The notes below the pieces were generated by a model, which saw nothing but the letters and a program-made list of their open reading frames with translations, did no database searches and was not told where the DNA came from. Source: Agrypnia vestita (taxonomy: Eukaryota; Arthropoda; Insecta; Trichoptera; Phryganeidae). From it: a stretch of 64,000 nucleotides of DNA. The stretch's first letter is position 1. Each line of letters opens with the position of its first letter. The stretch covers positions 62,001 through 126,000 of the forward strand of contig JADDOH010003947.1 of NCBI GenBank assembly GCA_016648135.1, written 5' to 3'. Position numbers and translations under genes: made by a program. Below, in pieces: positions 3,001 to 60,923 of the stretch.

Positions 3001-6000
3001 CGTTTTACTGAACATAAGAGATCTTTTACACTTAATAAAATGGAATCTTCTCAATTTGCTAAGCACTTGATACAAAACAACCATAGTATATCTCCAAATA
3101 ATAAACCAATTCCATTACATTTTTGTAATAAAGGTTTCAAACTAAATGTTTTGGAGCAGCTAGAGATAAATAAAAATCTAAAGAATAATATTATTAACGA
3201 ACAAATTAATATCTGTTATTCCCCCCTTTTAAATATGTTTAATACTACAAATATGTTTTGAGATACCAAATATTTATTATATATATACATAATTATTATT
3301 TAAGAAATCAATTGTTTGTATTCCTATTATTTCCACTTAAATTAAACAATATATGTTCACTCATTTTATATTAGCTGAAATATTCCCATAATGATCAAAT
3401 TTTGTGAAATTCTTTTAACCACTTAACACACCTGTATTTTTGTTTTCATTGTCCAGATTATTGTTTGTAGTAACCATGTTATTCCCTACTTTATGATATT
3501 TAAAATTTAAGTACCCAATTTAGATAATGTGTTTTAGAAACTATTCTTTGTATTAAATATACTTGAGGTTTTTCCAAATTTGCACCCAATTTAGATAATG
3601 TATTCTTTGTAATATACTTGAGGGTTTGTCCAAATTTGCACCAAATGTTTTGTATATAAACTCAATAATATGTACTATGTTTATCAGTTGATAAAGGCTT
3701 AATAAACCGAAACGATCGTCCTGTGTGTGGTAAAATAAATTTGAACTCAAAAAAGAAAATCATGTTTTGATTTTTTATTTTTGAATTTAAAATAATGGAG
3801 TTCTATAACATAAATAGCGTCAGTGTTAAAAAAAAAAAATTAAAACATTTTTATGTTTATGTTTAGTGATTCGAAGAACTAAAGTTGAAATGTGATATTT
3901 TATGTGTTCAGTGGTAGATATTTTTCGACTATAAGTATTGTGTTTTACGTGCGTTTCCTGTACTTAGCAAGCACATTGGACCAAAACTATAAGAAGATTT
4001 CATTGAAAAATATTGAGCGGTTTTCAAGATAAGAAAATTTTGTGAAAATATATAACGAGTTTGTGAAAACATATATTTTTTGCAAAACCCTGTTTCTTTA
4101 CCTGCTAGAATACACATGCGAAAGTACACGGCAGTATCCGACATTTTGGGTAGTTTAAATTTTTTGTTTCTCTTTGTAACTAATAAAAATTTTCTTGTTA
4201 AAACTATGTTATTTACAAACAAGTCTAATTATCTAATATTTTAGTAAGAGAAAACAATGTTATATTCTGGTAGCATTGTAATATTTTTTAGATAAACAAC
4301 TGTTGATTTAAATACAAATAATATGTGTGAGTTATTTTGCATAATTTTTTTTAATTAGCGATGCGTACATGGAATATGTTTTATATCAATATTCTTACTA
4401 TTTTCAAACTATGCTAAATGCTTGTACTATAAAAGTACATATAACTAACCTGGTGGTCTCCTGGTGAGTGTTTGAACCACTAGACTAACAAGCTACTAAG
4501 GCCCGGTTGTTTCAAGTTCGATCAAAGTAAGCGGTCGATAAAAGCATAGATTTTTACGAAAACGGATCGTCTGATTGGTGGAGAACGTAAAAATCTATGC
4601 TTTAAGAGAACGCTTACTTTAATCCAACTTGAAACAACCGGCCCTTACTCTATTACAATGTCTCAGTTTGATGTAAATATCAGATAATACAGTATTATAT
4701 TAATATAACAAGTTATTATCTATGTATAAAACTCATGATGTTACACAAATCACCTGGCAATGCACCATATCCTGCGGAAACAGACAGAAGGATGAATGTG
4801 TTAAGGTTGCCAGATTCATTCACATCAGGGGGTGTGTCTGCAGCATGTCGAGAGGTATCAGTCATAAATAAATAAATATTTATTCTTTTTCTCACATAGT
4901 TCAATGTAACCTGGTGTTCAAAAAATATCGAACCTTTGGTCAGAGGAAACACATTTATTCATACACACTATATTTTTATTCTAATCTCCTTCAAAGGAGT
5001 CCCCTTGGTAATGCACACTTCTCCCACGGTCCCGCCATAGTTGGAAACACTTCTGAAACGCATCTTTTGTAATGGTGTTCAGCTGAGTTATAGCATTCCA
5101 CATAATGACATTTATTTATGCATTATACCAAATTTTATTATTTTATTTTTCACAATTATCGTATAGTTTTTAAAAAGGAATAATTATAGAAAGAAGTAAT
5201 CAAATCATGCTTCGAACGGGTGTACATAAGCGTGTACGGTGGGCAGTAATTGTTTAATATTAAATATGCATATTAAAAAGTAAATTATTTACTGACTACA
5301 TATTAACCTATTCCAGGCCCGTGTCATCTGTACATGATGTGGGCACAGAAGGAGTAAAATAGAAAGTAAAAATGAGAAAAGTAAGAGAAATGTTTTGTGT
5401 TTTTAACAAAAGATCACGAAATATAATGATTGTACTAAATTGATTTTAAAAATTTTCATTGCCTTAAATGCAAACCTTTGACTGAATAGAGTCTACTGCA
5501 ACCTTGATAAAATCTAGATTGTAATAGATTATGTATAAACTATAAACACCTCATTTGTCGTATCTTCCTAAGGTTGATTCCATTTTTTTTTCTTAAAATA
5601 AATGTTTACTTCTTATATTTAGCTGTAGAATGATCTTCTCTCAATCATTTGATTAATTTCATTTCAGATAGCGAACTCCCCTCGATTGCCCTCCCGGTTG
5701 AGGAAGGGTACGACCTTTTGTGGGGTAAAACGAAGGCAGCCTTTCAGTATGTTTATGATCATCATAGAAACGATGCTGACTGGTTCATGAAAGCCGATGA
5801 TGACACGTAATATGACTATTTTATATTTTTAAAACGTTAATTGATTAAGAATTTATGCAATTTGAAAGGCTACCTGATGGAAATAGTGTGATTTTTTTGC
5901 AATTTTGATTAAAATCGTTATTATTTTCTCCCTCATATTTTCAGTATTGCAATTTTCGGGTAACAAAGTGCTTGTAATTGGTTGTGGCAGGTACGTGGTG

Positions 6001-9000
6001 GTGGAGAATTTACGTTACATGCTGTCGACTCACAGTCCCCGAGAGCCGGTGTACTTTGGATGCCGATTCAAGCCGTATGTTGAGCAGGGCTACATGAGCG
6101 GGGGGGCTGGCTACGTCCTGAGCCGAGAGGCGCTTGACCGTTTCATCACTGATGGTCTCCCCTCAGCGGAGAAGTGCAAGCAGGAAGATGATGGGGCCGA
6201 GGATGTTGAAATGGGTTGGTTATTTATGTAAAAACAATTTAAAAGTCAGTACCTGAAGACATTGCTCTTTCTGTCATGACCTTGAGTTAGGTCTGCCAGG
6301 CCTTCTCGCTATAAAGCAACAGTGGCTAGCTGCCATAGCCGCTTTATATAGCCTAGGGTACAAGGTTTTTTGTGGCATTATTTTTAAGTATTCTACTCTG
6401 ATATACGTCGTATATACGTACAATATATACGTACGTGATATACGTACGATAAATATCGATGGTAAAGCTCTGAATACCTGCTCTAAATTCTACTATCGAG
6501 GATCAGCAATATTAGTAAATTTTTATTTTTATTTATTATCTTGACCTGGCGGGTAACATAGGCGACATTTCCCCACCTCCCTCCCTGAGGTATAATATCT
6601 ATACAAATCTACACCATTACATAGCCTAGGGTACAAGGTTTTTTGTAGCATTATTTTTAGGTATTCTACTCTGATATACGTCGTATATACGTACGATATA
6701 TACGTATCTGAAATACGTATGATAAATATCGATGGTGAAGCTCTGAATACCTGCTCTAAATTTTACTATCAAGGATCAGCAATATTAGTAAATTTTTTAT
6801 TTTATTTATTATCTTGACCTGGCGGGTAACATAGGCGACATTTCCCCACCTCCCTCTCTGAGGTATAATATCTATACAAATCTTCACCATTTAACAGATC
6901 TGACCCAACTTGGCATACCTATTCTTTAGGACCCGGCAGAAAACATGAGCCACATTCCCCCCAATATATTCTCTATACAAATCTACTCCGTTTGACAAAT
7001 TTTGCATACTTATTTTTTAGGACCCTGGAAAAATAAAGGTGCCATCTCCATTCTCCCCTATACCCCACTCCCTCCCCCAGGTATAAATTTAATGCACTCC
7101 AAGTTAATTTTTTTTTTTTTCCGTTTTTTTTTTTGATTTTGTTGGAAAAACCTTTTCCAAATTCTTTTTTTTTCCGTTTTTTTTTGGATTTTGTTGGAAA
7201 AACCTTTTCCAAATTCATCCTTATTTACTCCTTATCACCTTGTGTAAAAAAAATATCCCCCCCCCCCTACATACACCATCCCTCTTGAAATGATTGATCA
7301 TCCTAATTGTAAGTCATCAATTTTTTTTAGTAAAGTTACTCTTTAGGACCCTGCGGAAAAATACACATCATACCCGCTCCCCGTAATTACCCCCCCCCCC
7401 CCATTACCATTATATAAATGTCTTCTTTAAATTGACAAATTTGGCAATTTTAATCATTAGGATCATCTGTAAAATGATAACATTCCCCTCCCCCCGACAA
7501 TCTCACTCCTTTCGCCCGTTATAAATTAAAATTAATTCTATTCAATAATTTTTGTTGCACAGCTTAATATTGTTTATCGAGAATTTATAGACTTTGCAAA
7601 ATATTGGTATTCTTCTCCTCTACATATTTTTAACTAAATCTTTAACCCAGGCATCGCCAGGTATAGGTCTTTTCGTATAAGCTTGCAATTAAGTTAGTAT
7701 GGGTACAGTGCATAATACGTGCATGGTTTTGTTGTGTTAAGTTTACGGATACGAGAGAGGCATATCCGTAAACTTAACACAATGAAACAATACACATATT
7801 ACGCACTGTACCCACACTAACTCAATTGCAAGCTTAAATGCAAAAGCCTATACTGACTGCTAGTAATTCGTACAACAATAATTTTTTTCAAAATAGAAAA
7901 TGTGTGCACGAAATGTGTAACATCAAAATTTATATTATTTTTAAACTAAGCTTGTGCAACTAAAATAGGACTAACATAGTGGTCTCCTGGAATGAGGCTC
8001 GAACCTACAACCACCGGATCACTAGACTTGTGTTGAACACAAGGTGTCTGTTTATGTATTCCATGGCAGTACTGTGTCGGAGACATGCAACACCACATCA
8101 GCTCTGATGATGGACCCTGCAATAGGATCCGAAACGTCGAGCACAAAGGTAGTAGAAATTCCAGAAAACTCAAACCAGAAGATATAACACTTTACTTCAT
8201 TCCTTATGGAAATAGGAAGTTTATTAAAATATTTAGCACTTTAGTAATTGTAGTGACGCTGGTCCAATTATTGTCATTGTATTGGGAAAATTACACTAAT
8301 TTTGAAATGTTGTGATGTTTGGCATGTCATCTCATAATGAAGTGCTGAACACCAAAACAAACTCAAATAAAATATAAAATTGTATTTTATATAACTTGTC
8401 ATCTCATGTCATAATACATTGATATTAATCTGTTTCTTTCAGGGATATGTCTCGCTAATGTGGGAGTAAAAGCTGGAGACACGAGGGATTCCCTGGATAG
8501 GGGACGATTCTTCCCGTTTAAGCCAGAATATCATCTCGTTCCTGGAGATATTGATAAGACTGGTTGGTACTGGGAGTACATGTATTACAAATCTGAAGTA
8601 GTAAGATTTTTTAAATTATTGAAATTTGGTTAATAAGTTCACCTTTTATATGTTATCCCACAAAATAAGTTAAAATTCTTCAGTTCTGAAAAATTTCCAT
8701 ACGAGTTGCGTATTTTTTTAGGCTTTAATAATCAATAATAGTTTCTGCATCTCAATGTTTCCTGTCTAAGTAATTAAAATATTAATTAACAAAACTTAAC
8801 TTATCCCTAGAAATAAATCTTTATAATAGGTATTTTGGAACACAAAACTTTGTTTGACATTCCTAAAAATGAATAAGGGGTGCAATAAAATAAGCTTCCT
8901 AATATTTGAATAGGCCAATAAAATTTACTGCCCAAAAGAATAACAAAAATCAACAAAATGGGTGACTCTATAAATAATTCTTACAGAGCTACACTTAACT

Positions 9001-10473: not shown

Positions 10474-10733
10474 TATATATTTTTTCGTTTAAAAAAGGTT
10501 ACTTGCTTACTAGAAAAACTTCTTTTGTGTTCATTTTTTCCATCGTAACAACACAAATATTTTTTGCGCTCATTCTTTAGAATGCGGTCTAGCTACAGTG
10601 ATGAAGGTTCCTGTGAGGTTTCAGCTGTAACTCAAGCTGAGAAGGCTGTGAGATAAATGGTGAGGCATGAATGTTGCTATAAAAATTAAAATCTGTGAAT
10701 TATCAAAATATTTTTAGTGTGGTTTGAACTATA

Positions 10734-11271
10734 CAGGGTTATTTGGAAAACATTAATAACCTCGCAGAATTATACTCCTGCCTTGATTATGAGTCGAAAA
10801 TGTTCAAGCTATTATGACCTAATATCAATAGTTAAGGAATATGCGACGTCAAATTTAACATTTTTTTTTCAATATTTCCAACTTACTTTTTGTAAAACGT
10901 TGGACTATCATTACAGTAACTTATATCGAGTATGAAAAATTCATTCCCTTTAATACAAGTCAAATAAAAAAATAAAAACCTTTGAATTCCAATTGGAAAA
11001 CGTTCCAATTGTATTTTTTTCAGGGTTTTAATCATTTTATTTAACTTGTATTGAAACAAATGAATTTTTCGTAATTGATATTAGTTACTGTAATGATAGT
11101 CCAACGTTTTACAAAAAAATAAGTCAGAAATATTGAGAAAAAATGCAAACTTTGATGTTACATATCTCCATAACTATTGATATTAGATCATGATAGCTTG
11201 AACATTTTCGACTCATAATCAAGGCAGGAGTATAGTCCTGCGAGGTTATTAATGTTTTACAAATAACCCTG
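10734..11271. mobile_element. 538-bp foldback element, TA target site
   Basis: The arms CAGGGTTATTTG...CAAATAACCCTG extend for about 250 bp each with few mismatches, including ACCTCGCAG, CCTTGATTATGAGTCG and CAATATTTC. It is flanked by TA on both sides, as for mariner-type MITEs. Related copies or pieces are at 40310, 40500, 40851, 46622 and 48626. It lies just downstream of C1GALT1. Confidence 0.75.
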
Positions 11272-11275
11272 TATA

Positions 11276-21600: not shown

Positions 21601-24600
21601 ATGCGCAGAAGACAAAATTTGGGTCTCTTTGGTGGAATAGTACATGCGCAAACTCCCCCCACTACATCGTAAAATTTCAAGATGTTTGCCGGCTACTGTA
21701 CCTATGCTGGTCCATCGTATCATGCACAAAGTGTTATTAGTATTCTAAACATTTTCAGGAATGGAACGACAAGATGAAGAAGAAAGAAAACTTCACCAGT
21801 GTTACTTCCTGTTCGAGCAGGCTTTAGATGCCGACGATGAAGGTCTCTTAGATGCGGCGACTGAACTTTACACTCAGGCTGTTGAATTGGGGATCACCAT
21901 TGTAAGTAAACATTTGTTCTTACTCCCACAAATCGCAAATTATTCTTATAGCATTGTGTAGCAATTATGTTTGAAAAAATTATTGACCATATGATTGTTT
22001 TATTTTTTTTAATAGAAAAGCCAAGATCAAGAAAAGAAAAGCAAATTAAATACGGTTTTGAAAGATGCTTTAGAGAGAGCGGAACGATTAAAAGGATTGC
22101 CACCGCATGTATCAAAAGATAGTCCAACTGACGATGTTCTCACAGATCTGAATAAAATATCTCTTCAACCCGGTCCCAGAACCCCGACAGCTCCTACCGT
22201 GCAAGTCAGATCTTCTCCGAGTGAGTAATGAAAGCTTGTCGTAACCTCAGGTTAAGGATCTATAGAGATGTATTATTACGAGAGTGAATGTATCAAAAGA
22301 ATGTAAAATGATGATGCGCTTCCGTAATTTGGACCATCACTAATGTTCGTATGCTTTAGTATTCAACTTAGCTTACAAAGTGAGAATTAAAAGGAATTAA
22401 GACAATGGTGTGACTTGAAGAAAATAGTACTTGCATGAAAACTCTTGATTTATCCAATAGATCAAGTGTTTATGCAAAAGGAGATTTATTTGCTGGAGAG
22501 TTAATTTCTGGTGTGCTAATGATTGCCAAATTATGAATAATCAACACTACAATTAAACATAAATCTCACAGTCACGGTTGAAATACTGATTTAGCTCATG
22601 TTACAGATTATTCAATTTTCGTTATTGAGCTGTGGGTTGTGCTAGTAACACCAGCTTGAATGTGTATGAAAAATATTCCTTGATATACTTATTTAATTTT
22701 TGTGCAGCCACACCACTTCACCGGGGAAACAGCGCCCACCTGAAGGTGTCTTCAGGTCAGTCTATGTACACCGAGGAAGAGAAACTCGTACTCACCAAAA
22801 CTTCTCAAATCAATAACAACCAATTTGTGCCATTCATGAGTATAGATCTCTCGGAAAATTTTCGATATGCGATCACCTTCACCGACAAGGATGGCTTGTT
22901 AAGCCTTTCCACTAAACAAAAACAAAACTTCAAACATTGGGCGCGTCCCGATGAAATATCATCCGAGCCGAAGATGATTGTGGGTCAAAACGTTGACTGT
23001 TTTAGCATTAAACAAACTGTAAGTGTTGCTTATATAAAAATGTTTTTATTATTATCATTTCTTTATGATTATCATGTAATATATTTATTCAGTGGAGCCT
23101 TACGATACAAACTTAATAGGCATGATGACGGTTGTTCCGGATGGGAACACCTTTTTTATGCGGCTCAGTTGTCTTCGCTGGTGAGGCAGAGATCACCACC
23201 AGAATTCGCTGTGAAGCTCGTAGTCCGTGGATATGCCAGAAGTCAAACGCCGAGGTAGTGCTTTTATCTTATGAAAGTCGAAGTAAAAATCCGAAGCGAA
23301 GGCCAAGTCAGAAGGCAGTGGTCACAAAAATCCAAGAAAGCAAAGTCCAGAGAAGATGAGCAGGAATCAGAAATAAAAAGCAGCAAGAGGATTGTCCAAA
23401 CAGCGATTCTCGTACCATGGTACTCGCTTTTAAATGCGTTATATTTATACCAAATTCAAAATTGCACAAGATTGCGTCATAGCATGTTACATAAACCAAT
23501 GAGGTTGCATGATTCTGGGAAGGCGCCGCAGCGCTCCCAGCGGCCGAGCGGTGAACTACGTCATTCGCGGTTGCGCAATTCCACCGCGAGGCAGATTCCA
23601 TATAGCAGATACAAATTAATTTACAAAAAATGCATTTTAGCTCCCAAGAGACTAATACTATGTTATTTTGTAATAACAGACCTAGCAGATGATAATAACA
23701 CAGTTGTTTGGACAGGCTGGGTCATACAAGGCCCAAAATATTAAAATTAAGTTTGCCACAAACGGCTCAAATTTTCAAAAATTCATAAAAAATCAAAAAC
23801 AGTATTTTTACAAGTTTTTTTATGACAAATATAAATTGCGCATGCAAGCGCTCATTTTAACAGTAATTCCAAATATGTCAGGTAAATATTTACTGAGTTA
23901 TAGGCATTCAAAAAAGCACCAAAAACCAATTTTTTATTCCACTCTCAGGCGCGCCTATATCATTCCACATATTTAAAAGTATATTTCCCAGACAGGCATT
24001 CAGTAAAAGAATGCAATGGCACTACATAAGTAGGATTTCGTCCACGGTAAGCCGCTCTGAACGTCGATTAAAAATTCGATTTTTTAATAGTCTCCACGGC
24101 GAGCCGTGCGCGCGAGATTACCGCGACGTGGGCCTAAGAGCAGGCGTACACCGTTTCCAAATCGAGAAAATACAAAATTTTCTCACGGTTTTCCAGTACT
24201 CATTTATTTCATGATGGACCATCTCCACGATGGCGCCCGGTTCAGGCCTTCGGGTCCCCGTGGAGGGTATCCCATATACGCATCTCAGACGGGGGCTCGG
24301 AATTTGAGTACTAGGCGTTAGAAGTTATAGCCGGTCAGGTGAGCTTGTCAAATCTCTCATATTTAAAAAACATTTATTTGCCCGTCGGCGGATTCTACGG
24401 CGGAAAGAAAGAGACGAGGCCCTCTGCAGCGAGACTCGTCTCCCGTGTTGGCGGATATTGCGTGCCACACTCATGCCCATTTAGTGTTGGCGAACATCGC
24501 GGGTACCGCGTGCCACACACATACTTTATTTGGGGCGTTACATCGCGGAAGAATCCCTTCGGCTCAAACTTCTAACCTCTATCCACGCACCAGTAGGTGC

Positions 24601-27600
24601 CAAATAAAAAACGATTGGACACAGCTAGTTGGAAGCAGCATGCGCGGGCGGCCCCCCTCCAGTCGCGGCAACAGCCGCTTGGCACTGACTTGCGCGCGCT
24701 CCGATCGGCAACCCAATTTCCAGTGGTGGCATACACACCTCGTCTCCAATGCAATTTTTTGTATGTAGCGGCTGATTTGTTTTGGACACGCGCCGCTCAT
24801 AGTGGTCATATTATGTTTTCATTTTTTACATGTCTCAACCCTGTCTGTTCCAACGGTATTAAAGAATTAGTGATTTTAGATAAGAAAATATTTTGAAAGG
24901 ATTATAAAAAATTATTCAGTTTTAATATACACATTGAGATTAATAAGATTTTCAATAAAATAAAAGTATAGAATTCTGCGTTTGACCATTTTAACTGAAA
25001 CACCGACCAGAGAGAATGACGTCACACCTAAGTACCCATCACCGTGTCTCTTGAGCTGTTGTCTTAGACACAATGCAATGTTTACTTAGGCTTGATGTCA
25101 TGGAGACGCCATGACACCTGCGGGCGTTCTCGCACGAAATTAAAAATAGGTAAATGAAAACGCAATTATTTGTGTAAAAACCTAGTTTATTACTGAAATA
25201 GTGTTGTTTTCGGTAATAGTAGACGTGTGCCTATATTATAAAAGGTTATTTGAAAATCTGTCATCATGCCTATTCTTGTGAAGGTTTGTGATATGAACCA
25301 TGATTTACTTCCACTATTTTCCATAGAGTCTTAATGAAAAACAAACTAATTGGTATCAGATACTCTACAGAATAGGCCACCATTTACACATATACACTAT
25401 TCTCACAGGTTTAAGCTTATCTTCAGAAACTTCAGGTTTTTTAGGTTCTTCTGCCTATTTATATTTTTTAACATTGAAGAAAGTAGTGAAGCGCTGTTAG
25501 GCCCCCCACTCACTTCAACAGTGTTGATGTGCCACTCAAACGCTCGCTGTGAAGCTTCTTCCAGTCCTTATAAATCTCATTGATTTTATCTGAAGGTATA
25601 GGCCCTTTTATGATGTTTTCCTCTTTCTCCTCCTCTGACGATCGCTTTACCTTTATCCCAATCTGATGTTTGTGGAGTTCTTTCGATTCTTTATGGTGAG
25701 TTACACTTCATTCTCTCCTATTAACTTCTCTGCGTCTTATTCCATTTCCAAGCCCAGATAATTGGACTCCATTGTCATGTATAGGACTCTCGCTTCATGA
25801 TCCAAAGGTCGCGGGTTCGAACCTCACTTCAGACCAGCAAGATAATCCTATTTTCAAAGAACAAGCATTTAGCTTAGTTTGAAAATAGTAAGAATATTGA
25901 TGTGACACATATTCTGTGTTCACATCTCCATTTAAAATGTCTAAATGGCTTGCATAACTTTAAATTCTTCCTTCTAAAATTTCCTCAATGTCTTGTAGCT
26001 GGAAGCATCGTAAACTTCAAAACAAAACAATAAAAAAAAACAATCTAGTGAAAACTGCTTTGAAAAAACTCTATAGTTTCCTATAAGTCCGCTATTCGAA
26101 CCTGGGTATGCGGTATAAAAAGTTCATCATGTGAGGCATTTACCATATGAGGTCCCACTTTATTATGTTGTTTAAAATAGAATTACCCGATACAGCAGCT
26201 GTTTTTGATAATGGAGTTTTTTGGATTGATTATGAAAGCACTCTCAATTTTTTCGATGTGTTTTATCTCAATTGGAGCTTAGAAATTATTGTGTTGTTTA
26301 AAATAGAATTATACGTATTGTTTTAATATTGTTTTAAAAAAATACATTTAAGTGTGAAATGAATTTGTGAACCCACAGACCTGAAGCATCTAAAGAGCCT
26401 TTCTGAGTTATTTAAATATTTTTAATACTGTATAAGAAATAAATGCAAGCTAGACCACAATATTTTACAGATAGATAGATGTCGGGTGGAATGCAGAGTG
26501 AGGTGTTGGGAGCTGTATGAAATATTAACAAAATTTCCAGTATAATTGAATGTCCTGATTCCAAAAATGTATATAAAATAATGTCGCACTCTTATATTAA
26601 ACGAGTAATTCCAATTTAAAAATCGTTGATAAGTTTGACAAATCAGCCTTTTCCTTTGAAGTTTTACATGTATCTATGGAAATCATTGAATAATTGTCTA
26701 TGGTTCGCGTATCTGACAGCTCCCAATGCCCTATTCTGCATTTATCCCTAGATGTCTACCTAAATTATGAGTGAAAAATTCTGGTTCAAATTTCTATTCA
26801 TATAAAATTATTAAAACTTTGCGGAAAAATTGTGGTTCAAATTTCTGTAAGGTTTCAATTATTTTATTTGACCTTTATTAAAGCTAATAAATTTTTATTA
26901 TTTAATAAAAGTTATTTTTATACAGAATAAATATTTAAAAAATTCTAAACATTATCGCTTACCTTGTTAACATTGATGTTATAGCATTTTTTACTCAAAA
27001 TTTAAACAGGTTGTACCTGTACTGTGGACTAGCTTTGTTACACCCAATTCGTTTTGATCATAGAACAATGACGGATGTGCAAAAAATTCTATATTGACTT
27101 TTTTGGATTGTTAAAAAGTGAAAAAAAGAAGCCATCTAATGGTATATAATTAGTGTAATTTTTCTCATTAATTTAACCATTGTTATAGGAAGTCGGTATA
27201 ATGACAGTTCTGATTTGCGATTGTAGAACAATGCAGCATGTGTAAAAACGTCGTTGTACAGCGCTGACTATATTTGATGTTTTAAAGGTATCCATACTTT
27301 AAATAACTAACCCAAGTTTCAAAGGAAAATCTTTTGTAATTATCGAGCTATCACATAAAGTGTCTTTATGTAAATAAAACTTCAAACTGCTCTCCCGCAA
27401 ACTTGAGAAAAATCACATGCATCATTGTTCTACGATTATCACCAATTGTGTAACAGACTTAGTGTGTAACAGAGATAGAGTTGGGTTGACAAGTTACTAC
27501 GACTGCTCCAGTTTGTATATCCTGAACAGCAGAACCCAGCTGGGCTAATGACTGTTTACAAATGCAGGTTTCTCGGGTTGGATGAAGGATTAAAATGTCT

Positions 27601-30600
27601 CTTGACAATAAAAAGACAGTATTACAATTATGGTATTTATTTTACTGAGCAATACAGTATACTTAAGATGTTTATTCTAATGGCAATGGTCAGCAAAAAG
27701 CACCGCGCTCTCGCGCAGTAGATATTTCAATATTTATCTCGCACATGGCTGTTCGCGCATGTGCCTTTCACTCGTGCTCTTACGCAAAAACTTATATTAT
27801 TTCATAATTTGTAATTGTTTTATCTTTTTGTAGGTTATATCTGATTGTTCTTTTGTGGCATCACTTGCAGTGGCTTCATTATACGAAAAGAAATTCAATA
27901 AACGCCTAATAACGTCAATAATATATCCGAAAAAAAGAAGTGGTGAACCTGTATTAAATCCTTTCGGAAAATATATGGTTAAGCTTCATCTCAATGGTGT
28001 TCCAAGAAAGGTTTGTTTTATATTTCATTTTGTGTGGTGTTACATTTATTCATTTTCTTTTGTAGAACATTTTAAATATGTGTTTGTTCATTGTTGTTGG
28101 CTTCCTTCCATCTAAAAAAGATGACAGAGATGGAGGTTCGTGCAGGGAGCTGATTGCGCCCCCCTTTTGGTAGTGACTGAAGTCTAAGGAGCGGTCTTAT
28201 ATAATTGTGACACAACTAAGATAACTAATCTTTCAGGTCACTCACATTTTTGTCAGTTCAAATGCAAATGCAGTGGAAATCGTTTAACATTAAACTATGG
28301 GGTCAAAATCTTTTGTCTTGTTGAACGAATTTCATATTAAAAAAAATAAATACACACTCATCTTTGTTTTTAATATCATGATTGAAACATTAAAAAAACA
28401 AATTTAGCTTTTTTAGTTTTTTTTTGGTAGGCAATGTAAGCAAAATTCACCACTTTTTCTCATGCGTATTTGTTTGGAAAGACGTCAAATTAAAATTTAT
28501 TCACCAGGTTCCATATATTTTAAACACGATTATCTTCCTAAAATTGCACAAAATAAATTACTTAGGCCCGGTTATTCCAAGTTGGTTAAAATAAAAGTTC
28601 GTTTAAAGCATAGATTTTTACATTCTCCACCAATCAAACGAACCGTTTCCGTAATTATATTAAAATAATAATATTATGCTTTAGATTTCTTCAAGTAAAA
28701 AAGTGTCAACTATGTAAAAAGATTTGAAAAAAACACATAAAAATATTTTTTAAACAAAGAGTTTTTTAAAACATAAATTGTAAGTGAACTTACACACACA
28801 TTTTGCAATAATTAACAAAAAAATTAGGCAATCATTTACTTGTAATATTATCGAACAAAAACACGTCACAAGTCTATACAGTCTTATAAGGCCCACAAAA
28901 TGAAGCAATTTCCTTCATTGTAAAACATGAAGACATGAAAACAAAACATGACATTTTAAAACAGACAAAACTTAGTTATTGGTGATTTATAATTTATTTT
29001 GCGCCTGATGTGGAACCCGATGCATAAATTTTAATTTGTTGTCTATCTATACAAAAATGTGAAACAAAATGCAAGAGAAGATATGAGAAAAAGAACTGAA
29101 TTTTGTTTACATTGCCATCGCCTTAATATATACATTTACTACAATAATCCTTATATATACTTGCACACAAACTATATATGGAGTTTTCAAGATGCCCGTA
29201 AAAATATATATGTAGGTATATTAATAAACAATAAAAAATAAGAATACATTTGACATCTAAAATATATAAATGAAATTTAAAAAATCCTACATTTATTAGG
29301 CAAATACTCATCTTTGTTGACAAAATCAGATTTTTTGCCCTCTGTTAGTCTTGCTCCTTTATATTCTATACCCGCAGAATCAATAGAAATTTAAGTTGTC
29401 AAGTCATAAACAGTAAACACTAGTGTGTGGCGAGCGTTTATTATTGGATGTTGATCTGGTCAATACAAAGTTGAGTCATTTACATGAACATAAACAATTT
29501 GGTAACTTTGACAATTTTTGACTTCTTAGATGCAATTTTTTTTGTTTCGTGTTAATAGAAAATAAATATACGAAATACATGCCTTTTTGCTGAGATTGGA
29601 ATATATTACTCTTTTAACTCTTTTCTCTTTATGTATTTGATCGTCATGTAATTTATTTTAGATTATTATAGATGACTTGTTACCTGTAAACAAGTACAAC
29701 CAGCTGTTGTGCTCGTACTCAAATAATAAACATGAATTTTGGGTATCTCTTCTGGAAAAGGCTTACATGAAAGTGATGGGTGGTTATGACTTTCCAGGAT
29801 CAAACAGTGTGAGTGTACTACCCTTATCTCTCACTTCTATTTTGTCAGTAATGAATTCTAAAATAGTCTATATATATGTATATCAATATTTTTATCTGTA
29901 TAAATAATTAAGTTAGTTTTTTTGTCAGTATAACTAATACATTTATATTTGATTTGATTTACTTGATTACTGATTAAATTTATCAACTCTTCATTGAAAG
30001 TATCTTAGGCTAAATTTTAAAATAATTAAATAATTATTTTTATTCCAATTTAATAAAAAAATTTAATAAATAAAAATTATAAAAATTAATAATCTATGAT
30101 AAGTGGCCCTCATGGGGTAGTGGGCGTGACACTGGCTTCTCACGCCACAAAGAATCCAGGTTCGATTCCCGGTGAGGTCACAATAAAATCTATATGATTT
30201 GCTCATGTCTGAGTGTTTTTGTGATGTGTTTCACTTCAGCGATTGAGTATCATAGAAAAAAAAATATTTCTGACTGTCCGGGATGGGTGAAGTAAAAAAT
30301 TCCAGATAATTTATTTTACAGTTAATTCAAAAGCATTGAAAATTTTTATAAATGTCTTCTCCAGTATCTCACCTACTGTCATTATATATATACATATATC
30401 AAATATTTAAAGTCAAATATTTCAGTTTGAGTTGAGTGTGGCTGTCGCTGTAAAACACCATCCATGTATAAATTATTTTGTTTTATCCACAAATTTTATT
30501 TGATGTTTCTCATAGATATTTTTTATTAATCAGAATATTGATCTTCACGCACTTACTGGCTGGATTCCAGAGAGAAGTGCGATTAGGAAAGATGCTCCAG

Positions 30601-33600
30601 ACTTCAATTCCAGTGCTTTGTTTGATACAATAAAAAACAACCTGATCCAAGGAACGTTGCTAGCGACCGTTGCAACAGGAGAGTTATCCCCGGCAGATGA
30701 AGAACGGACAGGTCTGGTGCCAACTCACGCCTATGCAGTGCTCGATGCCAAAGTTGTCAATGTAATAATTCTGTTTTATTCATTTTATTATCTTAGTCTG
30801 TAAATAAGAATGAAAACACATGCTTATTGGTATTATACTGAATATTAAACCAATTTCAGGAGTTTGAAGACAAACCAATAGTGATGGCTTCAAACAAATT
30901 CTCCTTGGAATTTAATATGTTTAAAATTGATATCACTCGTCCCATAGACATGTAGAGTTCTTTTCCCCTTCTCTGTGAATGGCCCCTTGTTTTTTTTTTC
31001 AATAAGATCGCTTAATCATCATTTCTTGCAGTAAAAAGTAGAATTTTTCACTTTACACTGTAACACGTGTCAATTTCATTCGTAAGGATATGAATTCACT
31101 GTTTGTCAATAATAAAAAAATCACTGTAAAAAATTTCAGTAAGTTACGTTATTAAACTTTATAAATTGTTCATTCTTGTTTTCGCTTTCTTGTAAAGTTA
31201 ACTTTTTGTCGTATGACGCTTTTCTTAAGGGTGTGCAATATGTGATTTATTTATATTTTTGTAAAATAGGGAATTTAGAGATATAGCAGTAAGATTGAGA
31301 TCAAAGCACAAATTAAAAATAAAATATTAGTTTGCATTATATACCTATGTAACATTAAGGCCCGGTTGTTTTAAATTCGATCAAAGTAAGCGTAGAGTTT
31401 AAACTGAAATTTTACGTTCTCCACCAATCAGACGATCCGTTTTCGTAAAAATCTATGCTTTTATCGACCGCTTACTTTGATCGAACTTGAAACAACCGGG
31501 CCTAAGTAATGTAATATTCACCCTTCAATAACACTCGGTGTCAATATGTGTATTACGGATGTTTGAAATTCATTTTCAGGGTGTTAAATTGTTTCAATTG
31601 AAAAACCCGTGGTCTCACCTCAGGTGGCGAGGTAATTATTCAGAGCTGGACATTACTCACTGGACTCCATCTTTAAAAGAAACGCTCAATTTCGATCCCG
31701 ATACAGCAGCTGTTTTTGATAATGGAGTTTTTTGGATTGATTATGAAAGCATTCTCAATTTTTTCGATGTGTTTTATCTCAATTGGAGCTTAGAAATTTT
31801 CCAATACACCTATTGCCTGCATCAGTAAGTATAATAAATCATCTGTTGACAAACTCATTTGAAGCAATCCGTTTTTCAATTAAAACAGGTTACAACTGTT
31901 ATCGTCTTGCTATACTACTGACGCAATTTATCACGCATTTCGACCCCTCCTATGTTGAATATTATAACTAATGTTTAGTCGTTTTGGATGGATATTTCAC
32001 AACTTTACATGCATATTTTAAGTGGCAGTATGTATCTATATTTTTTTTATGTGTTTTTATGTTGTGTATGTGTATTGTATTCTATTCGATATTTTTATAT
32101 ATCATATTCAATAGAACATTATTGTATATGTATATTAATGTAATATATGTAATATATTTGCAAAAATTGCTGCATTTTAAAAATGTATCAATTGGATGTG
32201 AAATACTAAAACAACAAAAAATGATCCATTTATAAGATACAATATTTTATGTATCAATTTATGAAGTAATTTTTTTAATGAAAACACAATTATATTATGA
32301 GGTTAAAATTTTATAAGAACATATTTCTTTGAGAATTAAAACAATCATAAATAACTTTAAAGGATAAACAGAAGAAAGTCTTCTTCGATGAACAGAAGTC
32401 TGTCTTTCGAAAAAGTATATGGTATGCTAGTGGTAAATGTGAATCATTCATATGTACTAAATTTTTGTGATTTACAAAAATGAGTATACTTTTTATCTGT
32501 AATTAGCTTGAGATGAAAATCATTATACTTGTAATAATAATAACACAGTAGAAAACCTTGTTAATTTGAAATTCAAGGCACAAAAAAATCACAATACCAT
32601 TAATTTTGTAAAAAATGTCATTTATTTTGTGAAAAACGTGTGGTGTTTTTTTGGACATTTCAAGAACTCATTTCGGAAATGCATTATTTGATATCCCAAT
32701 ACAAAGGTCGCTACATTTCTATTACTAAAGTATGTACCCGATATTGAGATATTTTTTGGTCTCACTTGCGAAAAAAATTGAAATGTTTTTTTCTAATTAT
32801 GTGGCCTGAAATGTCTCGATTTATGGTGCAAGGGGCTAAAAATTGTTTCTAATTATGAATGTTTTCGAATTATCAGGGTTAACCTGCAATGAAATGAACA
32901 TTTTGGTGGTTGTGGATTTTATCAATTTCGAATTATTTGGGTTCGTAATAACGGGATTTTATTGTAATTGTAATCTAAAATTTTATCATAGATTATGGCA
33001 TGCAGAATCAGGTCCTGTACGTGATGGATATAATATTGGTGACAATCCACAGTTTTGTCTTGAAGTTCAGGGACGAGGTGACATTTGGATTCTGCTGACG
33101 AGACACATTACAGATATTGATGACTTCAGAGAAAACAAGGAATACATCACGGTTCTTATTTACAAAAATGAAGGCCGCCGAGTATATTATCCACGTAAGC
33201 ACAATCATATTGAAATATTGACAGGAAATGTGCATGTTTGATTAATATTGTGGATTGTGTGGAATAATGGATGTTGAAAATAAATCTGTGCAAAATTTCT
33301 GCTAAATCTACTTTTAAACTTGTCGTAAAACTTATGACAATAAATAAAATGTTAATTTTGAACACAAAACATTGGGGAATTTAGATTACAAATGTACACA
33401 AACAGATACCATTTGCAAAAATTACACAAAATTATGCTACAAATTACATTTTGAAAGTATGCATTTAAATTTATAAGATACTTTGTGGTTACAGCCAGTG
33501 GTTCCAATGTGTAAATTCTACATGTGATGTGTAAATTTCAAATCCCCTTATTCCCAGCACAACAAGGTGGCTTTATTAGTATGATGTATGCGTGAAGTTT

Positions 33601-36600: not shown

Positions 36601-37574
36601 AATGAATCCTCAATACATGATAACATTGGGAGACTGTGCCTCTGCTAATCATTTGGTTTTGGATCTAAGAGGACCCAAGGAATATCAAGTTGGCATTGAA
36701 GTTACCGTCCATTCCCTGGAAGACCCTTCCGTAACAGCACCGTTTGTCACACGCTCTTCTGGTCCATACAGGTAATTGCATATTGGCAGTTTGTGCGTCT
36801 CGCAGTCCATGGAATATGCGGTATTCTCCTCCAATATAAATGCATTTTTGCATCTACCATTGCTCCTCCCTTTCGTTTTTAGAGTCCATGTCTCCGTTTT
36901 ATATAGTATTAAAGAAAACATCAGAGACCTTACAAAATGGGTATTGCAGGATTTCCCATAACTTCATAAGTTGTATCATTATAGATTCCTCTGACTAGCT
37001 GCATATCTACATACAATTATTTATTTATTTATTTATTCATACGCCAATCAGCTATATACATTGATTTTACAAAAATAATAGACTTAAATGAATGGATTGA
37101 AAAATTGCACATATATAAAAAAACAATACTAGCATAGTAACAACATGGTATAATCATATAGGGTTGAGGGTAATTTTAATGCTGTGATAACTATCTTTTT
37201 GCCGCTGATGAGAATGAGACGTATGATTCATCGAAGAAGTTGATATCAACACAGTGGCTATTCACCAGATTGGCAATCCTATTTCTTGGGCCATTGTATA
37301 TGTAACTTTTTGTGGATTTAGTGGTTTCTAACAATCTACGCACTCTTAGATCCGGCCTGGCAGTGATAATGCCAAATTGTTCCAGGATCTCGGGCTTATT
37401 GAGTTATTTAAAATGGATTTATGTTCCAGATCCGGCTTTGTCGTGCTGGAACTACCCGATCTTCCTTCGGGGAAATATAAAGTCATGGTGTCCACATTTT
37501 ATCCCGCCCAAGAAGGTACATTTATTTTGAACATCAAGAGTACGGCAGACGTTAAAATGTCTTTGATTACTTAA
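18603..37574 (+). CDS. CAPN7: Calpain-7 (PalB homologue), complete 12-exon gene
   Basis: Cysteine protease of the calpain superfamily that binds ESCRT-III proteins through N-terminal MIT domains. Exons: 18603-18798, 21759-21901, 22016-22220, 22708-23018, 27834-28010, 29662-29808, 30534-30761, 31580-31824, 32992-33194, 34746-34951, 36542-36771 and 37430-37574. All junctions are GT-AG with matching phases, giving 811 codons; the human protein is 813 aa. MIT1 is exon 1 ([20 protein letters not shown]) and MIT2 is exons 2-3. The protease core has Cys290 in [11 protein letters not shown] (codon 27846-27848), His458 in [10 protein letters not shown] (codon 30726-30728) and Asn478 in [12 protein letters not shown], the same numbers as the human triad. 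Two C2-like domains follow ([46 protein letters not shown]). A second in-frame ATG at 18591 would add four residues. No frameshift or premature stop is seen, so the gene looks functional. Confidence 0.98.
18840..21430. other. CAPN7 intron 1: GC-rich blocks of unknown origin
   Basis: GC-rich islands at 19150-19250, 19440-19980, 20400-20560 and 20790-21350 sit in AT-rich sequence. They look like diverged retroelement or LTR pieces: 19550-19740 repeats CAAAGCAGAAG-like words, and a similar style recurs at 23270-23580. No domain could be identified. A short palindrome, GCGGAGCATTCGG / CCGAATGCTCCG, lies near 21171-21202. Confidence 0.35.
21557..21708. mobile_element. 152-bp MITE with CAGTTGCCGGCAAAC ends, TA target
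   Basis: Terminal arms CAGTTGCCGGCAAACTTCTT and its near-complement are flanked by TA at both ends, as for Tc1/mariner-type MITEs. A second copy in the opposite orientation lies at 56114-56256. In CAPN7 intron 1, ending 50 bp before exon 2. Confidence 0.8.
23100..25140. other. CAPN7 intron 4, left part: unidentified GC-rich repeat
   Basis: GC-rich blocks at 23120-23600 and 24010-24800 contrast with the flanks. Several overlapping ORFs exist in different frames, none with a recognisable domain. The block at 24400-24540 repeats GCGTGCCACAC.CAT at a spacing of about 52 bp. Probably old LTR-type repeat sequence. Confidence 0.3.
25785..25950 (+). mobile_element. tRNA-derived SINE
   Basis: Box B GGGTTCGAACC at about 25812-25822, preceded by a tRNA-like head, then a tail with AAGCATTTAGCTTAGTTTG and AGAATATTGATGTGACACAT. 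The tail is shared with 39840-39950 (+) and, reversed, with 4388-4495. Confidence 0.65.
26186..26287 (+). pseudogene. 102-bp copy of CAPN7 exon 8 inside CAPN7 intron 4
   Basis: Bases 26186-26287 match 31697-31798 of exon 8 with one difference (26241 C against 31752 T). The copied piece is internal to the exon, has no splice sites of its own and lies between exons 4 and 5. It is flanked by the same 20-bp sequence, 26166-26185 and 26292-26311, as if a fragment was inserted with a target-site duplication. A few extra bases (26288-26291) separate the copy from the right repeat. It keeps the frame of the exon but cannot be spliced in as it stands. Confidence 0.93.
26474..26758. mobile_element. Foldback MITE in CAPN7 intron 4
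   Basis: Ends TAGATGTCGGGTGGAATGCA and TGCATTTATCCCTAGATGTC are imperfect inverted repeats continuing into TTGGGAGCTGT / ACAGCTCCCAA. No ORF. Confidence 0.6.
27038..27446. mobile_element. Foldback MITE with GTTACACCCAATTCG ends
   Basis: Ends GTTACACCCAATTCG and CACCAATTGTGTAAC are inverted, followed by ATAGAACAATGACGGATGTG and its near-complement. Its inner right part has AACTTCAAACTGCTCTCC, resembling a phrase in the elements at 35719 and 45811. It ends 388 bp before exon 5. Confidence 0.65.
28560..28690. mobile_element. Tourist-like MITE, decayed copy
   Basis: Begins TTAGGCCCGGTTATTCCAAG and keeps CATAGATTTTTACATTC and CACCAATCAAACGAACCG. The right terminal repeat is eroded. Same family as 4496. 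Confidence 0.6.
30105..30195 (+). mobile_element. tRNA-derived SINE, second family
   Basis: Head GGCCCTCATGGGGTAGTGGG, then CTTCTCACGCC, then box B GGTTCGATTCCC followed by GGTGAGGTCA. The copy at 40078-40200 has the same head and box B. Lies in CAPN7 intron 6. Confidence 0.65.
31357..31505. mobile_element. Tourist-like MITE in CAPN7 intron 7
   Basis: GGCCCGGTTGTTTTAAATTC at the left and GAACTTGAAACAACCGGGCC at the right, flanked by TTAA/TAA. It lies 75 bp upstream of exon 8. One internal arm is diverged. Confidence 0.75.
32546..32955. mobile_element. pogo/Tigger-like MITE in CAPN7 intron 8
   Basis: Starts CAGTAGAAAACCTTGTTAAT and ends in a stretch with ATCAGGGTTAACCTG and TTTCGAATTATTTGGG. 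The CAGT-A-AACCTCGTTAATTCG start is typical of pogo/Tigger elements. A longer related copy is at 56298-56797. It ends 37 bp before exon 9. Confidence 0.55.
33245..34745. other. CAPN7 intron 9, no identified element
   Basis: Contains an 88-codon plus-strand ORF (33620-33886, with [20 protein letters not shown]) of unknown nature and a GC-richer patch at 34060-34260. Neither has a recognised domain. The remainder is AT-rich. Confidence 0.35.
35719..36438. mobile_element. 720-bp TIR element with two internal tandem arrays
   Basis: Terminal repeats ATCGACGGCTCCTACGTATA and TATACGTAGGAGCCATCGAT continue into ATATCGTAACCCACAAA. Inside are two arrays: about four units of a 50-55-bp repeat with TATGTAACACTTACGATAA (35905-36090), then three units of about 53 bp with TTTTACGTCGCGTCTTTTCC (36095-36235). 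No ORF. It lies in CAPN7 intron 10, about 100 bp before exon 11. Confidence 0.85.
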
Positions 37575-40931: not shown

Positions 40932-41381
40932 ATTGGGGGTAGGCAGAGAGGATAGGGCGCCACACTCTTCTGTCCCTACATACAACTCTCGCCTCATCCA
41001 CATTAATAAATCTTCACATGCAAGCTCGCCAGTTGTTGAGGCTTCTAACGGGACCATCTTCCAGTATCTGATTTATCTGGTCAATGCCACGTCTTCCGTC
41101 TTTCTGGCGCGCGCGATCAACACTTGAATTGTATATTTTTCTTACCATTCTTCCCTCATTCATTCGCTCAACATGCCCAAACCATCTGAGCAACCCTTTT
41201 TTAATTCTAGTAATTATACTAATATCAGATTTACATTCATTCCTAATATCTGCATTCTTTACTCTATCACAAATTGATTTGCCACACATATGTCTGAGGG
41301 ATCTCATCTCCACTGCATTCAATCTACTTTCATTCCTCTTCTGCCAGCTCCAGGCTTCGCTTCCATACATCAGTGTTGGTA
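40932..41381 (-). mobile_element. LINE 3' fragment (GHVERMNE type)
   Basis: Minus strand: MYGSEAWSWQKRNESRLNAV, EMRSLRHMCGKSICDRVKNA, LLRWFGHVERMNEGRMVRKI, then DGRRGIDQINQILED. This is the conserved region after the reverse transcriptase of RTE/CR1-like LINEs. A second copy lies at 61357-61760. Confidence 0.8.
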
Positions 41382-41453
41382 ATGATAATGAGTCAAAAAT
41401 GTTTAAGCAATCATGACCTAATCAATATTGCCTGCTCATGACCTAATCAATAT

Positions 41454-46621: not shown

Positions 46622-47179
46622 CCAGAGCTAGCAGCAGAAACTTGGCCGATAGATTCCTGCCTACGTTTAAGCAACCATGACCTACCTACTATCAATAGTT
46701 ATAGAGATGTGCAATATATAAGTTTGCATTTTTTTTTCTCAATATTTCTGACTTATTTTTTGCAAAAAGTTGAACTATCATTATAGTAACTTATATCGAT
46801 TATTTATAACGATTATGAAAAATTAATTTGCTTCAATACAACTTAAATAATGAACTTATGAAAAATTAATTTGCTTCAATACAACTCAAATAAAATGATA
46901 AAAACATTGTAAAAAAAAACTTTTTTCAATTTTTGCAAGGTTTTTATCATTTTATTCGACTTGTATCAAAGCGAATGAATTTTTCATAATCAACATAAGT
47001 TACTGTAATGATAGTTCAACTTTCTGCAAAAAATAAGTCAAAAATTTTGAAAAAAAAATACAAACTTTGATATTGCGTATTTCCGTGCACTATTGATATT
47101 AAGTTGTGGTTGCTTGAACATTTTAGACTCATAACATAGGCAGGAATCTACCGGCCATGTTTCTGCTGGTAGCTCTGGC
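46622..47179. mobile_element. 558-bp foldback element
   Basis: Arms begin CCAGAGCTAGCAGCAGAAAC and end GTTTCTGCTGGTAGCTCTGG. They share ATTCCTGCC, AAGCAACCATGACC, CAATATTTCTGAC and AAGTTGAACTATCATTA with the 10734 element. A 29-bp direct duplication lies inside at 46816-46890. Confidence 0.75.
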
Positions 47180-47565: not shown

Positions 47566-50500
47566 TTATTTATATAGAAAGCTAATAATAAACGGCATTA
47601 TCTTTTCCGGTTCATTCAAGTGCACGTGATGAGTTCCTTGGACCTCGTGGCATATCACCAATGGAGCATGTTCCTTTATTTTATCCAGCACCATACCATA
47701 ATAGGCAGGGTTGTCCCAATCCATGCCGGGGATTGCCTTGATGTTGAGAACTTTACACTTGATTTTTTTTGCATACTCTAAAACATATTCGATGCTGAAC
47801 ATCCCCAAGACGGCAGGCTTCAACCTGACGTCTCGGGAAAAGTGGTAACCATTTTTCGATGCGGTTCTAGTCATCCCGCGCTGCATCAGTATCTCGCATG
47901 ATCTTTCTGTTATAGATCCCTTATAGGCATCCATGACCACTTGCAACATTTCTTCATACGAGTAACAAGGCAAGTCGTCCGGGGTCAATGTTTCGTATTT
48001 CAAAAATGCGTCAATGCTGGGGCCTGTCGCATCCACAATTTTTTTTGTGTCCTTGACTGACGGGCTCACAATGTCGATGCTGATATATCGGTCCACTTCA
48101 TCCGGAAACGAGGCCGCGTACATGAAGCTCAGAGCGCCGCCCATCGAGTGGCCCAGTAAGACAACTTTGGTCCACTTGAAATGATTGACGATTCTCCGTA
48201 TAAGCGAGATGCCATCCCAGAAGATGTAGTAGTGCAGGCCGGGTGGATAATGAGAGGATAGGCCGTGCCCGGGTAGGTCAATGGCGAGCATGGCTATGTC
48301 CACGGGCAACATCGGGCCGATGGTGTCCCAGGTGCCGGCGTTATCCTGCCAGCCATGCAGGGCGAGTATAGGCTGTTTCTCTCGTGGGCCCCACCACCGG
48401 CCGCTCACGTGTCCCCATGGGACGGGAATTTTTATTTCTGCACATTCTCTTACATCTGATTCGTCTAAAAAAACAATCTTAATTAGAAATAATTTTGCAA
48501 AAAATAAATCATAATCTTAGAATTAAAATAAAATAAGATGTTATTTGGTGGTCTGTATGTGTAATAAGTAATCTTTTAATTTCATTCATGGAGTCGAGTT
48601 TTAACTTTTTTCAAAACAGAGGATACAGGGTGTCTCATAGCTAGTAGCAAAAACTTATTTACACTTTGGATGAAATATGGACAGTTATGGAGATAAGCAA
48701 TAAGATAATAAATATTGGCTTTTTTTCAATATTTCCAACTTATTTTCTGTAAAATTTCGGACTAACTCTAAATATTAAAAATATACTTTGATATTATAAG
48801 CTTTGATACAAGTTAAATAAAATGATAATGCATTTTTTTGTAAGGTTTTTTTGTTATATTTGACTTGAATTAAAGCAAATTAATTTTTAATATTTCATGG
48901 AAGTTACCGTAGTGATAGACATTTTGCAGAGACAAATATTGAAAAAAATACTAATTTTGACGCTACTTATCTTCATAAATATTGACATTCACCCAAAGTG
49001 TGGGGAATATTTTCTTTTCAAAATTGAAATGTTTTTTTCAATGTTTTTCTAACATTCTACATGAAGATTCTACATTCACAAAGAAACCATAACCACTGGA
49101 AATGTGGAGAAATCGGTCAATCATTCTGGATGCTTCGCGAACCGACATTGTGTATATAAGCGATGACGGCCACTGTGGAGCCAGAATTGTTTAGACAAGA
49201 TAGATAGAAGGGACCGTAGAAGAAAGCGAATTGAGAACTCGCGTAATATCATAAACAAGAAATAGGCAAGAGTAAAGTGAAAAAAAATGAGTAAAGTGGA
49301 CTTCTTTTTATTTAAGAAAGACAATCAAATTAATATGTGTAAGCCGTGCGTACTTCGCATATAGTCTCGTTCTGTGTTGTTTACGGGTATCGTGGTGTCC
49401 CTATGGCGGGGCGGGTATAAATAGACCACCATTCGGGAACGCGGCCTCTTTTTGCTTAGCGCCCGCGTGAAATACAGGAGGTAGAATGCGACCACTATAA
49501 ATTGGCGTGCGAGGAGGGCGTCCCTGTCGCGTAACAGAAGTTGCCAGGGTGTAAATTTATTACACAATACAAAATATACAGAATGTCCGGTGACTGGTGT
49601 CGTAGCCTTTAACAAAAATTTAGCCGGGCAGCACTAAAGAAACCAAGCAGTAATAGCGGCCGTTCTATCTGTCAAACTGTCAGACGGTAATATCGGTCCA
49701 TTATTTGCTTTTTCAGCTTCGCAAAACTTTAATACTTCATTGGCTTGCACCATCCCGGACTGTTTAGGATGTTTTGGACATAATAATTCAGTGTATATTG
49801 GTAATCAAGATGTTACAGCTCCTGAGCGAATACAAAATTGAACTGAATGACAGGGCGAGGGGTTACCGCGGTGCGGGCGGGGCGGGTTTTAGTTCCAAAT
49901 TCGCCGCATGCCAATTTACGTTGGGCAAGCAATAGAATGGTCGTTCCTATTGTTTAAGTCATCAATACAAGTCCCTACATAGTACCGAGTTTTATCTGAT
50001 GTAATTAACACCAGTTTTACGGCACCCGTCAAATTGACAGATTTCCGATTTGCTTTGTAAATTTTACTAAACAGGCAAAAAAAAATCTGATTTTTTAAAA
50101 TGAGTTTTTATAAAATGGATCAGTGCAAATATATTTACTGTTTTTTTAATTCAGAAACCTCTTATTTTTGAAAATCTTGTTGCTTTGGACACCCTCAAAT
50201 TGACGGGATTTGGTAGTTTAAAGAATATCCCTTTTGAATTCGTTGCATTTGTGAAATTATTACTTTTGAAACAACATAATCATATTTCTACACTTTGTGT
50301 GAAGCAATGAAGAAAGAATGTTGTTGATGTTGAGAAAGTTTTATTTCAAACACAAATTACAAGTACCTATGCACTGTGTAAAGCATTTGGAACATTATGA
50401 TTTATGGGTCAATAAAAAAAGGTCTCTTGGAGGATTGATTTCTGGCAATGTTGACCACATGAAAATCTTCAGTTTTAGAATTGTAGACTGTGTGTGAAGA

Positions 50501-60220: not shown

Positions 60221-60652
60221 AGCCATGTATTCACTAGGGGACAAATTGTCCCTCAACAGCACGCGCGGCATAGAGTCTACGTGACGTTGCAACGTCGGCT
60301 ATCATCATAACCTTATAGGGCGATATATTTCCGCGACGTCTGGAAAACAATAATTATTTGCAAAAAGGACCTTGTTTTTAATAATATTCAATTTACTACA
60401 GTAAAACCTCGTTAATTTGAAATTGCGACCCAAAAAAACATTTCGAATTGCGCGGAACCCCGTTTTCGCCAAATGAGATACCGCAGCTGTCATCCATAAC
60501 CTCATCGGATGACATTTCCGCGACAAGATATGTGAGTCCCGGTGTGTACACGTTAAATGACCGCGTCATTGTCCCCGAAACATGAGCGTAGATGTTGATG
60601 CGACATGTCGAGCGGAATGTTTCGCGATTTGTCCCCTAGTGAATACATGGCT
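60221..60652. mobile_element. PIF-Harbinger MITE, copy 3 (432 bp)
   Basis: Same terminal repeats as the copies at 53768 and 55232, flanked by TTA. It has lost the transposase and most of the GC-rich end but keeps a nested pogo-like piece (CAGTAAAACCTCGTTAATTT) at about 60402. Confidence 0.85.
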
Positions 60653-60923
60653 TTATGTGCCTCGCCAGGCAGCAATGAGCCATGCGCCGATTTGTGAACG
60701 CTTGTTGGGTGATGGGCGACGCTGGCCCACCATGGCTATTATTATGTTATCTATGACCATGGCGCAAGGGCCATTTATAGCTTAATTGGGGCCATAGAAG
60801 TTTTTGTTTTGAAGTTTGTGGCGCGATGCAAAAGGACGAAAGTGCGGGAATGTGACTTCTATAAATGTGACAGATAAACGTTAAAGCAAAATGTTCATAT
60901 AATGTAAAAATCATATTTTTATT

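Follow-up and report, generated by a model that had tools for sequence, protein, structure and literature searches.

In the caddisfly Agrypnia vestita, a 102-bp piece of exon 8 of the calpain-7 gene (CAPN7) is found a second time in intron 4 of the same gene, bordered on both sides by a direct repeat. We consider it probable (about 0.7) that this insertion is a repair scar: the trace of a staggered break whose overhangs were filled and into which a short patch, copied from nearby, was inserted. It provides a clean and fairly young insect example of a short local templated insertion in which both joins can be read. The window, i.e. the whole stretch of DNA that was analysed, comprises 64,000 nucleotides (contig JADDOH010003947.1, positions 62,001 to 126,000); all coordinates below are positions in it, see Table 1.

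Table 1. Positions in the window of the host gene, the insertion, its flanking repeat and its source.
Feature	Position	Strand	Basis
Intact CAPN7 coding span of 12 exons and 811 aa	18603..37574	+	hand-made gene model
Intron 4 of CAPN7, in which the insertion lies	23019..27833	+	gene model
Left copy of target-site duplication; 26 bp with 1 mismatch, identical core at 26166-26185	26160..26185	+	BLAST self-comparison, extension test
Copy (102 bp) of codons 509-542 in CAPN7 exon 8	26186..26287	+	BLAST self-comparison, gene model, homologues
Right copy of target-site duplication; first 2 bp (TT) common with insert end	26286..26311	+	BLAST self-comparison, scan, extension test
CAPN7 exon 8	31580..31824	+	gene model and homology
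Source stretch within CAPN7 exon 8	31697..31798	+	BLAST self-comparison

Open frames and splice sites were combined manually into the gene model. Its coding exons are joined by GT-AG introns into a single open frame of 811 codons with no internal stops. Among the 120 best of 2,026 homologue matches, the highest ranked is a calpain-7-like protein of another caddisfly, Arctopsyche grandis (79% identity over query residues 280-811), whose group we take to be the net-spinning caddisflies. It is followed by proteins of moths and butterflies with at most 70% identity and one unnamed protein with 71%. The original prediction named intron 4 as the host and exon 8 as the source, in agreement with this model.

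In a BLAST self-comparison the copy and its source are identical at 101 of 102 positions, gapless and on the same strand (E 2e-47). The same pair was recovered by a self-comparison of the whole window; the single mismatch over 102 bp had been counted correctly in the original prediction. Measured from start to start, the copy lies upstream of its source by 5,511 bp, and the gap separating the two is 5,409 bp. The source begins 117 bases into exon 8 and stops 26 bases short of its end. It therefore crosses no splice junction, and an RNA and a DNA template would be inseparable by the piece they leave, as the original prediction had argued from the lack of poly-A and the position inside one exon.

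The only difference between the two stretches lies in codon 527, which is ATT (Ile) in exon 8 but ACT (Thr) in the intron piece. At this residue the 120 best of the 2,026 homologues have Ile (106), Val (8), Leu (5) or Met (1), and none has Thr. Exon 8 is therefore the source and the intron piece the copy, so that, judged by sequence conservation, the copying ran from exon 8 to intron 4.

Exactly one donor for the copy is present within the 64-kb window. The whole-window self-comparison, with the low-complexity filter on, gave 85 pairs of at least 30 bp; by their layout, the remaining pairs look like copies of repeat families, inverted repeats or local tandem duplications. A partial tandem duplication of exon 8 can be ruled out as the origin of the copy: similarity to the exon breaks off abruptly on either side, and the exon borders are unlike the target repeat. 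The latter had also been pointed out in the original prediction.

The flanking repeat is exact over 20 bp (26166-26185 and 26292-26311), as first described. When it is extended leftward, 25 of 26 positions are identical between the two copies. The predicted span of 26166..26311 thus started correctly at the exact core, while the longer repeat begins six positions before it, at 26160. On the left the repeat adjoins the insert, and on the right it overlaps the last 2 bp of the insert. The insert ends with GAAATT and runs directly into the repeat, so the right junction carries a 2-bp microhomology, TT, at 26286-26287. Since these two bases belong both to the insert end and to the right repeat copy, the repeat proper is 24-26 bp long. 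An alternative parse of the right edge is a 20-bp repeat followed by four untemplated bases. At the left junction no microhomology was found by reading. The target edges, read on either strand, are CCACT/TTATT and GAATTA/TACGT.

Such a repeat is far beyond chance. When offsets of 60-399 bp were scanned over the full window, the only exact runs of at least 20 bp were those of the flank pair, of a tandem duplication of 273 bp and of an AT microsatellite. We also drew 2,000,000 random flank pairs at offsets of 80-399 and excluded 50,399 of them because they lay in the tandem duplication or the microsatellite region. In the remaining 1,949,601 trials the longest exact match was 17 bp, and geometric extrapolation from these pairs gives a probability of 9e-12 for a match of at least 20 bp. 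The target does not appear to belong to a repeat family: its best other match in the window is 85% identical over 27 bp (37396-37422, E 0.007), and being short and AT-rich it was taken as chance.

We propose that in a germ-line ancestor a break would have occurred in intron 4 with ends staggered by about 24-26 nt. A patch may then have been copied from exon 8, either through strand invasion nearby or from a DNA, cDNA or RNA fragment present locally. One end of it would have been joined through the TT microhomology and the other directly, and the flanking direct repeat would have arisen when the overhangs were filled. The copy, its source and direction, the flanking repeat and the letters at the junctions are observed; the break, its stagger, the repair pathway and the germ-line timing are what we infer from them.

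Sharp junctions and a flanking repeat far beyond chance speak for this reading. So do the local donor, the short insert, the 2-bp microhomology and the absence of poly-A, which make the insertion much like the proximal repair-mediated duplications of Pace, Sen, Batzer and Feschotte (2009, PMC2671141). In that paper, donors lie within 5 kb in 824 of 1,136 single-donor human insertions, with a median insert of 147 bp for those 824. Among the proximal cases inspected there, none of 39 has poly-A/T and 6 of 39 have a target duplication, while microhomology is frequent in this class; the reported range of target duplications, 4-21 nt, pools these with poly-A cases. Some donors are full or partial exons, and one of them was inserted, in opposite orientation, into an intron of its own gene. 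The class of event is already in print, and by analogy the CAPN7 copy would work like a proximal repair-mediated duplication.

The comparison can be followed point by point. The paper uses inserts of at least 50 bp with a single other genomic copy; here the copy has 102 bp and one donor in the window. It also uses a lack of poly-A/T together with marks of break repair (2-9 nt of microhomology, filler sequence or a deletion), and here there is no such tract and a 2-bp microhomology. However, the donor lies narrowly outside the 5-kb limit, a line described there as ad hoc, and we therefore file the insertion under the wider kind of short templated insertions at repaired breaks. Further, the published cases come from vertebrates and were detected, by the method used there, inside interrupted transposable elements, while this one is from an insect, has a duplication of 20-26 bp and a donor that is wholly internal to an exon.

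Direct repeats from filled overhangs are also described for other insertions. Here, 33 repeats of 4-12 bp accompany new introns in Daphnia (PMC4202315), and repeats of 1-11 nt are found at 17 of 71 numt insertions (PMC2567098), which derive from mitochondrial DNA; both are attributed to repaired staggered breaks. The repeat in CAPN7 is longer than these. With 20 exact bases, or 26 with one mismatch, it lies at the upper limit of, or beyond, the lengths given in the three papers (maxima of 21, 12 and 11 nt). A passive stagger of this length would be unusual, and the stagger may for this reason have been made by an enzyme. Three further observations count against a repair scar: the left junction lacks microhomology, the donor is slightly farther away than the 5-kb line, and the piece is entirely exonic. 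Across the gene only 1,223 of 18,870 possible 102-bp windows are wholly exonic (6.5%; with two other spans, 6.7% and 5.3%). All the same, the joins, the local donor and the flanking repeat fit best with what the original prediction proposed, a fragment captured during repair or reverse transcription with duplication of the target. A literature search on exon-fragment templated insertions in introns with direct repeats gave no match, which is weak evidence of absence.

Could the insertion have been made by a retroelement? An endonuclease/reverse transcriptase of a LINE- or Penelope-like element would have nicked intron 4, and target-primed copying of a broken CAPN7 mRNA fragment would have left a long target-site duplication. 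The length of the repeat suits enzymatic staggered nicking better than it suits the shorter break-repair repeats of the three papers, and a fragment of mRNA must be wholly exonic, as the piece is. At face value the exon-internal position favours mRNA about 15-fold, but we discount this heavily because exonic cases are those that a reader notices. Several observations point the other way. By reading, there is neither an A tract at the insert edges, as the original prediction had stated, nor an AATAAA within the insert, and no mRNA 3' end is included; both ends fall inside a single exon. The target edges do not resemble TTTT/A, a feature of class 1 in PMC5110952, although the preferences of insect LINE or Penelope-like elements may differ from those of LINE-1. 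The source lies in cis at 5.5 kb, while the donors of the 17 inspected poly-A/T primate cases in PMC2671141 are on other chromosomes. Finally, the group of the closest listed homologue differs from the groups with most LINE activity in PMC8881205. Without poly-A, an L1-type nick site or an mRNA 3' end, standard LINE-mediated retrocopying is unlikely, and we regard a retroelement origin in general as unlikely too.

The same features set the insertion apart from the templated sequence insertion polymorphisms of Onozawa and Aplan (2016, PMC5110952), which it resembles in being a short templated piece and not a transposon. In that paper, class 1 insertions typically have poly-A and a TTTT/A target, class 2 insertions have no target duplication, and donors are distant; the CAPN7 copy matches none of these. 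It shares with class 1 and LINE-1 insertions a duplication of at least 5 bp. A non-templated poly-A with upstream AATAAA, as in class 1, is lacking, and the target is not TTTT/A, with the caveat that this insect's own elements may prefer other sites. The presence of a duplication separates it from class 2.

A template switch during replication (FoSTeS/MMBIR-like) appears very unlikely. Here the nascent strand would have switched to exon 8 as template for 102 bp and then resumed about 26 nt behind the point where it had left, thereby duplicating the repeat. The donor is local and on the same strand, and one switch point shows a 2-bp microhomology, but the other shows none. The end product would be identical to that of break repair, and the two are hard to separate by sequence.

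It is also conceivable, though we give this still less credence, that this insect lineage patches breaks with a long stagger (about 26 nt) in cis with the gene's own spliced mRNA, by an RNA-templated route distinct from LINE retrocopying. If true, such repair would leave introns with pieces of exons between long target duplications. The use of RNA as a repair template in cis would be tested by many such pieces across the genome, with exon donors above chance and long duplications. An assembly artefact or chimeric read is scarcely credible: misjoined sequence is not expected to be bordered by a direct repeat, and there is one substitution in the copy and another in the repeat, in keeping with real age.

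Compared with the original prediction, the direction of copying, the microhomology at the right junction and the case against classical LINE-mediated retrocopying are additions.

The copy is fairly recent. Copy and repeat together show 2 differences at 154 presumably neutral sites (102 + 2 x 26), i.e. 1.3% (0.16-4.7%). At the mutation rate of a butterfly this corresponds to roughly 0.5-16 million years, and related species may therefore lack the insertion.

Most likely the copy is functionless. Its use as a new exon was rejected, as the surrounding splice sites are poor. We scored them with a small matrix built from the 11 introns of CAPN7, so that the gene's own sites are also the training set. 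The best acceptor in 26050-26330 reaches 2.8 bits (26181, in the left repeat) against 9.7-16.6 for own sites, and the highest donor score between the end of the insert and 26419 is 3.6 bits against 5.2-10.2. Donor scores within the range of own sites occur at 26106 (5.6) and 26131 (5.7), but both positions lie upstream of the insert. A stop-to-stop frame of 63 codons (26135-26323) is open across repeat, insert and repeat; a Pfam search with it gave no match at E 0.01. With its 34 complete codons the insert keeps the phase; this would be expected by coincidence about 1 in 9 times and is given no weight. As a single case, it illustrates that introns gather pieces of coding sequence without evident consequence.

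The window contains several other features. Two frames (41014-41421 and 51721-52083) presumably resemble C-terminal parts of non-LTR retrotransposon proteins; neither matched Pfam at E 0.01. An inverted pair at 1867-3795, with 811-bp arms that are 98.3% identical, is possibly the remnant of a Penelope-like element. Within it, a 213-codon frame (2409-3050, minus strand) hits CENP_C_N (E 0.0029) and GIY-YIG (E 0.0048), neither of which reaches the Pfam cut-off. A second inverted pair of about 355 bp (53764-54115 and 60302-60656) is 94% identical, and the tandem duplication of about 273 bp mentioned above (6344-6891) is 94.5% identical. Three stretches of about 390-560 bp (10730-11275, 46622-47178 and 62831-63219) are self-complementary, being 64-85% identical to their own reverse complement, and look foldback or MITE-like. 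Finally, a 316-codon frame on the minus strand (47566-48516) encodes an alpha/beta hydrolase (Abhydrolase_1, E 1.5e-20).
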